NCBI GenBank assembly: GCA_937884605.1
Contig: CALGDM010000022.1
Span: 1-64,000, forward strand
Direction: 5' to 3'
Source: an uncultured Spiribacter sp.
Lineage (GTDB): Bacteria; Pseudomonadota; Gammaproteobacteria; Nitrococcales; Nitrococcaceae
DNA: 64,000 bases
The translations under genes and the position numbers were made by a program. Within the stretch, counting starts at the first letter, position 1, and each line of letters begins with the position of its first letter. Below, one piece after another: positions 55,183-57,340 of this stretch. The notes under the pieces were generated by a model that did no database searches, was not told the DNA's origin, and saw only the letters and a program-made list of their open reading frames with translations.

Positions 55183-56253
55183 TTAACCGACGAGCTTGTC
55201 GTCGGCATACAGCAGCGCGTTGTCGACGGGGAACACCACCCGCAGACCGTCGCTGTCGATCTTTTCGGATTCATCCAGCCGGACGTGGACCTCGTGCTCG
55301 CCCAGGTGTCCCGTCACCAGCACGTAATCGCCCAGATCCTCGACCTTGTCGACCTTGATCAGGTGCCCGGTCTCGTCGGCCGCGGCCGGACGGATCAGCT
55401 CGGGGCGGATACCCAGCTGCAGATCACCCCCGGCCAGACGGGCAGCCTCGGCCATTGCCGGGTCGACGGCGATCCGCTCGTCCCCGACCACGGCCTCATT
55501 GCCCTCGACCGAGCAGGCCATGAAGTTCATGCCCGGACTGCCAATGAAGTACCCGACAAAGGTGTGTTCGGGGCGCTCGAAAAGGGCCTGCGGCGTGCCC
55601 ACCTGCAGGACCTGTCCGGCCAGCATCACCACCACCTTGTCGGCAAAGGTCAGTGCCTCGGTCTGGTCATGGGTGACGTAGACCAGCGTCAGGTTGAGCT
55701 GCTCATGCACCTCTCGCAGCTTGCGTCGCAGCTGCCATTTCAGATGCGGGTCGATCACCGTCAGCGGTTCGTCGAACAGTACCGCGGCGACGTCCTCGCG
55801 CACCAGCCCGCGTCCCAGCGAGATCTTCTGCTTGGCATCGGCGGTCAGGTTGTTGGCCCGACGCTTCAGGACGTCTTCGAGCCCCAGCATGGTGGCGATA
55901 TGCGTCACCCGCTGGTTGATGTAGTGCTCGTCCATGGAGCGGTTACGCAGCGGGAAGGCCAGATTGTCGAACACGGTCATCGTGTCGTAGATGACCGGAA
56001 ACTGGAAAACCTGGCCGATGTTGCGCCGCTCGGGTGACAGATTGGTCACGTCGCGCTCGCCGAACATGACCTTGCCCTCGGACGGCTGCACCAGCCCCGA
56101 GATGATGTTGAGCAGCGTGGTCTTGCCGCAGCCGGAAGGCCCCAGCAGCGCATACGCGCCGCCGTCTTCCCAGACGTGCTGCATGGGCTGCAGGGCATAG
56201 TCACCGCCCGGTGCGTACTGATGGGCGAGGTTGTTGAGTTCTATTCGTGACAT
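55183..56253 (-). CDS. glpT: glycerol ABC transporter ATP-binding protein GlpT (degenerate signature motif)
   Basis: ATPase of 356 aa. Walker A GPSGCGKT is at residues 38-45, Walker B VLFDE at 158-162 and the switch histidine at 195 (VTHDQ). The ABC signature, normally LSGGQ, reads LTADA (136-140) followed by KQKISLGRGL. The C-terminal ~120 residues form an OB-type regulatory domain. With GlpS, which keeps LSGGQ, it would complete one canonical ATP site. This GlpT is unrelated to the E. coli glycerol-3-phosphate permease of the same name. Confidence 0.9.
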   Translation of the reverse strand: MSRIELNNLAHQYAPGGDYALQPMQHVWEDGGAYALLGPSGCGKTTLLNIISGLVQPSEGKVMFGERDVTNLSPERRNIGQVFQFPVIYDTMTVFDNLAFPLRNRSMDEHYINQRVTHIATMLGLEDVLKRRANNLTADAKQKISLGRGLVREDVAAVLFDEPLTVIDPHLKWQLRRKLREVHEQLNLTLVYVTHDQTEALTFADKVVVMLAGQVLQVGTPQALFERPEHTFVGYFIGSPGMNFMACSVEGNEAVVGDERIAVDPAMAEAARLAGGDLQLGIRPELIRPAAADETGHLIKVDKVEDLGDYVLVTGHLGEHEVHVRLDESEKIDSDGLRVVFPVDNALLYADDKLVG

Positions 56254-56266
56254 GTATCTACCCGCG

Positions 56267-57340
56267 TTACTGCTGCGGCGCGGCCACGAGCTGGTCCGCG
56301 CTGTCGAATACGTAGGCCCGGTTCAGGTCGGCGTGCACGTCAAAACGCTCACCGGGATGAACCACGTGAACGCCGCGCTCCTCGACCACCCAGTCATGGC
56401 CGTTGACCGCGAGATGGACGTAGGTCACCGACCCGGCCACTTCCGCCACTTCGACCTCGCCCTGCATGGTGATGCGGTCGTCGCCGGGCGTGACATAGAG
56501 GTGATGCGGACGCACGCCCATGGTGTAGCGCCCCGGCACCAGGTCTTTCATCTGTGCCGGCAGCGGCTGATCGAACAGTCCCTCGACCTTGACCCGACCG
56601 TCGTCGACCTGGATGGGCATCAGGTTCATCGGCGGGTCGGCGAACACCTGGGTGACCGTGGTGCTGGCGGGGTGCCGATAGCATTCCGCCGTCACGCCGT
56701 GCTGAACCACCCGTCCCTCGTGCAGCACCGTGGTCTTACCCCCCAGGACCAGCGCCTCCTCGGGCTCGGTGGTCGCGTAGACCACCACGGTGTCGCGGTC
56801 GGCGAACAGATTGCGCAGTTCCGAGCGCAGCCCCTCGCGCAGCTTGTAGTCGAGGTTGACCAGCGGCTCGTCGAGCAGCACCAGCCTGGCGTCGCGCACC
56901 AGTGCCCGCGCCATGGCACAGCGCTGCTGCTGGCCGCCGGACAGCTCCGAGGGCAGGCGATCAATGAGGTGGTCAATGCCGAGGCGCTCGGCTTCGGTGC
57001 GCACCCGGCGATCGATCTCCGAGTCGGACAGCCGCGCCAGCTTGAGCGGCGAGGCGATATTGTCGTAGACCGATAGCGATGGATAGTTGATGAACTGCTG
57101 ATACACCATGCCCACGGAGCGCTTGCGCACCGGGACCTTGGTGACCTCGTTGCCATCTTCGAGGACCCGGCCGGTATTGGGATGATCCAGCCCCGCCATG
57201 ATCCGCATCATTGTTGTTTTGCCGGCCTCGGTCAGGCCCAGCAGCACATTGAACTCGCCCCGCTGGAAGGTGAGATTCACATCTCTGAGATGCGTCTCAC
57301 CGCCAACGGTGCGATTGACCCCCTCCAGGACGAGACTCAT
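56267..57340 (-). CDS. glpS: glycerol ABC transporter ATP-binding protein GlpS (switch histidine missing)
   Basis: ATPase of 357 aa. Walker A GLTEAGKT is at residues 35-42, the signature LSGGQ at 133-137 and Walker B VLLDE at 154-158. The switch-loop position that is His in most ABC ATPases is Thr191 (YATTEPEEAL). A C-terminal OB-type domain follows. The start overlaps the glpD stop by one base. Its defects complement those of GlpT. Confidence 0.9.
   Translation of the reverse strand: MSLVLEGVNRTVGGETHLRDVNLTFQRGEFNVLLGLTEAGKTTMMRIMAGLDHPNTGRVLEDGNEVTKVPVRKRSVGMVYQQFINYPSLSVYDNIASPLKLARLSDSEIDRRVRTEAERLGIDHLIDRLPSELSGGQQQRCAMARALVRDARLVLLDEPLVNLDYKLREGLRSELRNLFADRDTVVVYATTEPEEALVLGGKTTVLHEGRVVQHGVTAECYRHPASTTVTQVFADPPMNLMPIQVDDGRVKVEGLFDQPLPAQMKDLVPGRYTMGVRPHHLYVTPGDDRITMQGEVEVAEVAGSVTYVHLAVNGHDWVVEERGVHVVHPGERFDVHADLNRAYVFDSADQLVAAPQQ

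Follow-up and report, generated by a model that had tools for sequence, protein, structure and literature searches.

Two adjacent ATPase genes with complementary motif losses

In contig CALGDM010000022.1 of an uncultured Spiribacter sp., of which the first 64,000 nucleotides were analysed (hereafter the window), two adjacent genes encode GlpS and GlpT, the predicted ATPase subunits of a glycerol importer of the ATP-binding cassette (ABC) superfamily (Table 1). The E. coli antiporter that is also called GlpT is a different protein. The gene order glpS-glpT-glpP-glpQ-DUF2160-glpV, with glpR, glpD and glpK nearby, corresponds to the GlpSTPQV gene set, and an identical set with identical GlpS and GlpT motifs is present on pRL31b3 of R. 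leguminosarum. As in operons of the CUT1 family, two permeases with BPD_transp_1 domains and a binding protein with an SBP_bac_1 domain are encoded beside the two ATPases. Domain profile searches gave the MalK-type arrangement of an ABC_tran domain with an OB_MalK/TOBE domain behind it. PF00005 was found in both GlpS and GlpT; PF08402 scored above its cut-off in GlpS and slightly below it in GlpT, and PF17912 above its cut-off in GlpT and below it in GlpS. The predicted folds of both proteins match MalK over the full length. In a comparison with NCBIfam, UgpC led the 25 best of the 180 matching families, and no LivG or LivF family was among these 25 for either protein.

A first-pass annotation of this DNA had proposed that GlpT carries LTADA (residues 136-140) in place of the LSGGQ signature but keeps Walker A, Walker B and the switch His195, and that GlpS keeps LSGGQ (133-137) and both Walker motifs but has Thr191 at the switch-His position. 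All of these assignments were confirmed residue by residue. When both proteins were aligned, GlpT 136-140 fell opposite GlpS 133-137 and GlpT His195 opposite GlpS Thr191. We found two further differences that the annotation had not mentioned, in the A-loop and the D-loop, which belong to the same composite site. We refer to the site that GlpT would contribute with its Walker motifs and switch His, and GlpS with its signature, as the intact site, and to the reciprocal one as the degenerate site. Misreading or a frameshift could be discarded as the cause of the losses, since both frames are open and of full length and the residue numbers agree. A canonical CUT1 importer has LSGGQ and the switch His in each ATPase; as GlpS and GlpT do not each have the complete motifs, we classed the system as a CUT1 variant and not as a canonical member.

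Table 1. Genes of the locus and functional motifs of GlpS and GlpT, in window coordinates. Counts refer to the 146 aligned GlpS/GlpT pairs described below.
Feature	Position	Strand	Remark
GlpV substrate-binding protein, 581 amino acids	51362..53107	(-)	SBP_bac_1
DUF2160 small membrane protein, locus marker	53186..53482	(-)	PF09928, E 4.6e-34
GlpQ permease	53498..54301	(-)	BPD_transp_1
GlpP permease	54305..55171	(-)	BPD_transp_1
GlpT, CUT1/MalK-type ATPase subunit, 356 amino acids	55183..56253	(-)	Walker/His half intact, LTADA replaces signature
GlpT switch His195, intact site	55669..55671	(-)	His 146/146
GlpT D-loop LTVID, non-canonical, degenerate site	55750..55764	(-)	LTVID 141/146; NLD or ALD 0/146
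GlpT Walker B Asp161-Glu162 (DEP 161-163), intact site	55768..55773	(-)	Glu 146/146
GlpT LTADA (136-140) replacing LSGGQ, acidic Asp139, degenerate site	55834..55848	(-)	SGG 0/146; acid in pentapeptide 146/146
GlpT Walker A GPSGCGKT (38-45), intact site	56119..56142	(-)	Lys 146/146
GlpT A-loop Tyr13, intact site	56215..56217	(-)	Y 145, F 1 of 146
GlpS, CUT1/MalK-type ATPase subunit, 357 amino acids	56267..57340	(-)	signature intact, switch His absent
GlpS Thr191 replacing switch His, degenerate site	56768..56770	(-)	His 0/146; T 123, S 18, P 4, A 1
GlpS D-loop LVNLD, canonical, intact site	56849..56863	(-)	L[AV]NLD 146/146
GlpS Walker B Asp157-Glu158 (DEP 157-159), kept in degenerate site	56867..56872	(-)	Glu 146/146
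GlpS signature LSGGQ (133-137), intact site	56930..56944	(-)	SGG 146/146
GlpS Walker A GLTEAGKT (35-42), kept in degenerate site	57215..57238	(-)	Lys 146/146
GlpS Val12 at A-loop aromatic position, degenerate site	57305..57307	(-)	aromatic 5/146
GlpD, glycerol-3-phosphate dehydrogenase	57340..58869	(-)	NF008899, 775.9 bits vs cut-off 360
DeoR/GlpR-type regulator	58917..59831	(-)	PF00455, PF08220
FGGY kinase, GlpK by context	59804..61369	(+)	PF00370, PF02782; likelier start ATG at 59876

Conservation of the two composite sites and origin of the losses

Homologous pairs were collected through the DUF2160 protein (PF09928), which as a marker does not depend on the ATPases, and up to 18 kb were fetched around each marker. 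DUF2160 was present in 85 of the 398 genomes that were sampled for the window's phylum, in 17 of 23 genomes of its family, in 9 of 198 from the phylum of Desulfopila aestuarii and in 4 of 198 from the phylum of a Bacteroidota genome (three of them above the cut-off), with 0 of 14 control genomes in each case. Sampling around a genome named Candidatus Planktophila gave a fourth set (35/200), which repeated places of the window-phylum sample. One locus (L169, CALQLF020000006.1) is titled Candidatus Planktophila lacus, yet the phylum search around its genome returned places of the window's phylum; this genome seems to have been grouped with that phylum, so that title and grouping disagree.

Removal of six duplicates (L156-L160, L181) from 157 loci left 151, and in 135 of these both ATPase genes were complete and adjacent. 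The remaining 16 comprise six loci of a single-ATPase family, nine truncated at the end of a contig and one (L174) whose short GlpS frame lies near the start of its contig; complete GlpS and GlpT genes lying apart were found in none of the 151. In L174 (WNDQ01000069.1), GlpS has a shortened frame (279-1115) even though the contig begins upstream of it, suggesting either a frameshift or an assembly fault. The 135 pairs were aligned with those of the window, of R. leguminosarum and of eight loci from other phyla, and with a second pair of the window genome, giving 146 pairs. The eight derive from 11 other-phylum loci, after exclusion of L301 (whose GlpS contains a run of N), L304 (whose GlpS lies beyond the contig) and L308 (without a relative, and with DUF2160 below the cut-off). 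Clustering of the 146 pairs gave 144 groups at 98%, 110 at 90% and 41 at 70% identity.

All seven features of the intact site (Walker A Lys, Q-loop Gln, Walker B Glu, switch His and A-loop aromatic residue in GlpT; SGG and the NLD/ALD D-loop in GlpS) are present in 146/146 pairs. The degenerate site retains the Walker A Lys, Q-loop Gln and Walker B Glu in all 146, and has lost the switch His, SGG and the NLD/ALD D-loop in every pair (0/146 each) and the aromatic A-loop residue in all but five. A random occurrence of LSGGQ in GlpT or of His in GlpS among homologues, which the first-pass annotation had named as grounds for dropping its proposal, was seen in 0/146 and 0/146 cases. Because SGG is absent from every GlpT and His from every GlpS, with the complementary motif kept in all 146 partners, the loss exceeds chance, and we conclude that complementary loss is a fixed trait of GlpS and GlpT. 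If a heterodimer is assumed, each of the 146 pairs would form one complete site (GlpT Walker/His with the GlpS signature) and one with an altered signature, affected on both sides, as had been proposed.

The occurrence in 146 pairs also led us to reject the idea that the losses are peculiar to the window genome. A link of the asymmetry to DUF2160 or to glycerol was rejected as well, since the second pair has no DUF2160 match and many loci show no glpD or glpK in the fetched stretch. This second pair of the window genome (G000:C13:4187-6387; L309, L220) sits behind genes for a short-chain dehydrogenase/reductase, a binding protein and two permeases. One subunit has LSGGQ with a switch Thr, and its partner has LTADQ with THD and LTVID; the nearest matches of the GlpT-like subunit in 299 genomes of the phylum are at GlpT level, with at most 58% identity.

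The altered GlpT signature is itself constrained. It mostly reads L[TSAG][AP]DxKQK, and among 110 representatives the entropy is 0 bits at L136, Q142 and H195, 0.28 at K141 and 0.47 at D139, for a median of 0.72; in GlpS, T191 has 0.80 bits vs a median of 1.10. An acidic residue is present within GlpT 136-140 in 146/146 sequences (at position 139 in 141 of them), and none was found at signature positions 1-4 in the 146 GlpS. Position 139 is equivalent to the second glycine of LSGGQ, which in CFTR is the residue altered by the disease change G551D. The signature loop contacts the gamma-phosphate in other ABC dimers, and an acid at GlpT 139 should disfavour a closed ATP sandwich.

Decay of the motifs without functional meaning would be in line with the greater divergence of GlpS (mean identity of the nucleotide-binding domain 0.587 vs 0.671 for GlpT in the 110 representatives, with GlpT higher in 96.8% of comparisons) and with the variability of GlpT signature positions 137 and 140. 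However, the pattern stands across the 110 clusters at 90% and the 41 at 70% identity, the genomes concerned bear names from three phyla, and strong conservation is seen elsewhere in the replaced motifs, which makes this explanation hardly credible.

In a quick maximum-likelihood tree of 123 ATPase rows, from which the trait columns had been removed, GlpS (43 rows) and GlpT (43 rows) each fell on one side of a branch, with Shimodaira-Hasegawa approximate likelihood ratio (SH-aLRT) values of 99 and 100, and canonical CUT1 ATPases lay outside. As each subunit forms one clade, the data fit a single early origin of each loss. A sister relation of GlpS and GlpT was not supported in this tree, and a weakly supported branch (89) united GlpS with second ATPases from other tandem CUT1 pairs. 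Five GlpS keep an aromatic A-loop residue, and four of them come from Bacteroidota loci or from L305 (Desulfopila phylum) and sit on deep GlpS branches, suggesting that this residue was lost later than the switch His and the signature.

Signature and switch motifs are complete in the single-ATPase relatives that were sampled. UgpC-type loci (L227-L248) have SGG and the switch His in 22/22 cases, and the same two motifs plus NLD are found in the single ATPase of all six loci with a weak, partial DUF2160-like match (L103-L108); the DUF2160-like small protein may predate the two-ATPase system. We also aligned 27 other ABC ATPases of the window genome (55 match places were listed); by hand count, SGG is present in 25 of these and the switch His in 24. 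Only two LivG/UrtD-type and three LivF/UrtE-type subunits depart from the canonical motifs.

A predicted heterodimer with one catalytic site

From the sequences, their conservation, the single clade of each subunit and the predicted fold, we infer that GlpS and GlpT make up a heterodimeric MalK-type (CUT1, type I) glycerol importer in which a single catalytic site drives transport, and we give this reading a probability of about 0.8. ATP bound at the site formed by the GlpT Walker motifs and the GlpS signature would close the dimer and would then be hydrolysed, driving transport. The site formed by the GlpS Walker motifs and the GlpT signature would be catalytically dead or very slow, and probably would not sandwich ATP.

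Pairing of the two subunits is favoured because only the S:T combination yields any complete site, and neither homodimer contains one. Separate homodimers of GlpS and of GlpT might be expected from the precedent of MalK, which is a homodimer (PMC7756565), and from CUT1 ATPases that serve several transporters (PMC7658222). Apart from leaving no complete site, such an arrangement is at odds with the complete and adjacent genes in 135/151 loci and with the lack of any locus where complete genes lie apart, and we consider it very improbable.

Another explanation is that both sites hydrolyse ATP and that Thr/Ser191 of GlpS and the LxADxKQK loop of GlpT are working substitutes, the asymmetry being one of rate only. 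Thr or Ser occupies the switch position in 141/146 GlpS, and the Walker B Glu is kept in all. In addition, the E. coli heterodimer DppD/DppF is described as having similar ATPase activity in either single Glu mutant (PMC12136057). However, DppD and DppF are described as having functional motifs (PMC12136057), whereas one site of GlpST deviates in its signature, its switch His and its D-loop, and an altered signature is reported for every human degenerate site (PMC7756269). We therefore regard hydrolysis at both sites as unlikely.

As to the state of the dead site, we slightly favour the view that it would be poor at sandwiching ATP, owing to the acid in the GlpT loop. The rival here, which concerns only this part of the reading, is a second site that binds ATP tightly as a long-lived clamp, as in the degenerate site of CFTR. 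It would account for the Walker A Lys, Q-loop Gln and Walker B Asp/Glu that are kept in 146/146 GlpS, and the degenerate site of ABCC7 is reported to hold ATP for minutes (PMC7756269). In contrast, the A-loop aromatic residue, tied to long ATP residence in ABCC7 (PMC7756269), is absent in 141/146 GlpS, and the acid in the partner GlpT loop of all 146 pairs should disfavour a closed ATP sandwich. We thus hold the clamp to be a serious but less probable alternative.

Several points weigh against a single-site heterodimer. Retention of Walker A, the Q-loop and the catalytic Glu in 146/146 is odd for an idle site, and the Thr/Ser found in 141/146 GlpS might partly substitute for His. The GlpT loop is held only in part, positions 137 (1.72 bits) and 140 (2.57 bits) varying above the median. 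Support in the tree is by SH-aLRT only, and some branches are long. By our own reckoning, two losses in two subunits would share one site by chance in half of cases, and all four features in one in eight; it is their fixation, and not their coincidence in one site, that is the stronger argument. Finally, we found no biochemistry on the GlpST family in the open-access literature.

Relation to other asymmetric transporters and implications

The first-pass annotation had described this kind of asymmetry as well known in exporters and not described for this importer family. The second part held, inasmuch as we found no account of GlpST asymmetry in an open-access library that lacks most subscription journals; the original paper on glycerol uptake in R. 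leguminosarum may mention it. The exporter framing was too narrow, given LivG/LivF, UrtD/UrtE and RbsA/NupO. We also rejected the notion that the asymmetry is new for importers, since LivG/LivF and UrtD/UrtE show complementary loss. Asymmetric importers thus exist outside the GlpST family.

Like GlpST, the exporters TAP, TM287/288 and the ABCC family including CFTR have one consensus and one degenerate site, the latter with an altered signature, and signature changes are reported for all degenerate sites of the human genome (PMC7756269). Published exporter patterns mostly alter the Walker B Glu (PMC7756269, PMC7544095), a loss that has been called a hallmark of exporter degenerate sites (PMC7544095). 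GlpST differs in this respect, as the Glu is present in both subunits of 146/146 pairs, and exporters also have the exporter fold. What sets GlpST apart is the combination of a MalK-type system, an asymmetry complete over four features, an obligatory acid and a spared Walker B Glu.

Among importers, LivG/LivF share the complementary loss. In E. coli K-12 (L347:7725-9207), LivG has LAYGD and EHD, LivF has MSGGE and EQN, and the Walker B Glu is kept. In 30/30 pairs (L348-L377), SGG is missing from LivG, which has an xYG signature and keeps the His (EHD), and the His is missing from LivF, which keeps SGG and has EQN; both have the Walker A Lys and Walker B Glu. This sample consists of the 30 loci that matched E. 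coli LivG best, from a list of 79 matching genomes out of 150, so that it leans to E. coli-like LivG, and it includes the window genome's own pair (L376). The window genome also encodes UrtD (LSHG/EHD) and UrtE (LSGG/EQK), both above the NCBIfam cut-offs. The loci of this kind compared in the window genome are L222, L223 and L225. In the third such pair (L222) the LivG-like subunit still has LSGGQ, the missing His being the sole loss, and hence the LivG/LivF type of loss is not fixed in the wider group. Both systems resemble GlpST in complementary loss with the Walker B Glu kept. The shared pattern of LivG/LivF suggests that a degenerate site which, in contrast to that of exporters, retains the catalytic Glu is a general type among importers. 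Both systems differ from GlpST in belonging to another ABC ATPase subfamily, in the aromatic A-loop residue that LivF and UrtE, unlike GlpS, retain (in the subunits compared, those of E. coli K-12 and the window genome) and in an altered LivG-type signature that, unlike that of GlpT, does not require an acid (LAYGQ, LPYGA). The sequence comparisons point to a likeness of pattern and not of kinship.

Degenerate ATP sites have been described from sequence in two B. subtilis importers, RbsA and NupO (PMC11466899), which share with GlpST one degenerate site in an importer. In contrast to GlpST, these are fused single chains whose second Walker A has no Lys, with Walker B residues missing from NupO as well (PMC11466899), all of which GlpS keeps in 146/146. 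DppD/DppF is like GlpST in having two different ATPase subunits in one importer, but its ATPase activity survives either single Glu mutation (PMC12136057). The CUT1 importers MalFGK2 and UgpABCE have one ATPase gene and GlpST two. E. coli UgpC carries LSGGQ and THD, and pairing of two such subunits gives two equal sites, whereas GlpST would have one complete and one altered.

Other adjacent CUT1 ATPases were also found. In a tandem-ATPase system beside Gfo/Idh and isomerase genes (L262, L342-L346; Rhizobium, Sinorhizobium, Pararhizobium, Pseudosulfitobacter, Jannaschia plasmids and G055), the first ATPase has the signature LSVNI (5) or LSVNE (1) in 6/6 cases, and the second has DDP for DEP in 5/6, Jannaschia retaining DEP. 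As in GlpST, the changes of this alphaproteobacterial system meet in one composite site. Unlike GlpST, it has the switch His in both subunits (6/6) and a Glu-to-Asp change as in exporters, and its single pair in the tree falls outside the GlpS and GlpT clades. In other tandem pairs (L257-L261), neither subunit has lost the switch His or the Walker B Glu, and the first carries LSGGD, LSSGD or LAGGD.

Whether type I importers hydrolyse one or two ATP per cycle is a standing question that has mostly been studied in MalFGK2, where mutating one MalK subunit severely impairs maltose transport. The ATPase subunits of MalFGK2 are identical and hard to alter singly. GlpST has its sites already split onto two genes, one complete and one altered, so that the question could be tested with single point mutants. 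A wider speculation, which we consider doubtful, is that importers repeatedly evolved a single-site ATPase of their own, with complete Walker A and B, one subunit without the switch His and the other without the signature (GlpST, LivGF, UrtDE), and that the obligatory acid of GlpST blocks the ATP sandwich and lowers the cost to one ATP per glycerol instead of two. If true, the saving would matter for a three-carbon substrate.

Glycerol is inferred as the substrate from the neighbouring genes and, by analogy, from Ruegeria pomeroyi, in which an SPO0608 mutant (glpVSTPQ) showed 79.6% lower growth on glycerol and 78.8% lower drawdown (PMC10130141). As this mutant is impaired on glycerol, the GlpVSTPQ system appears to be functional in vivo. 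Many loci (L052, L058, L059, L113-L119 and others, Pseudomonas-like groups included) have GlpS-GlpT-P-Q-DUF2160-V with no visible relative of glpD or glpK in the fetched stretch, and some of these family members may transport another substrate. We found no paper on DUF2160 in the open-access literature. Next to the binding-protein gene, the window encodes an 848-amino-acid protein (48732-51278) that we named by eye as a heavy-metal-type P-type ATPase, with two N-terminal CxxC-type domains.

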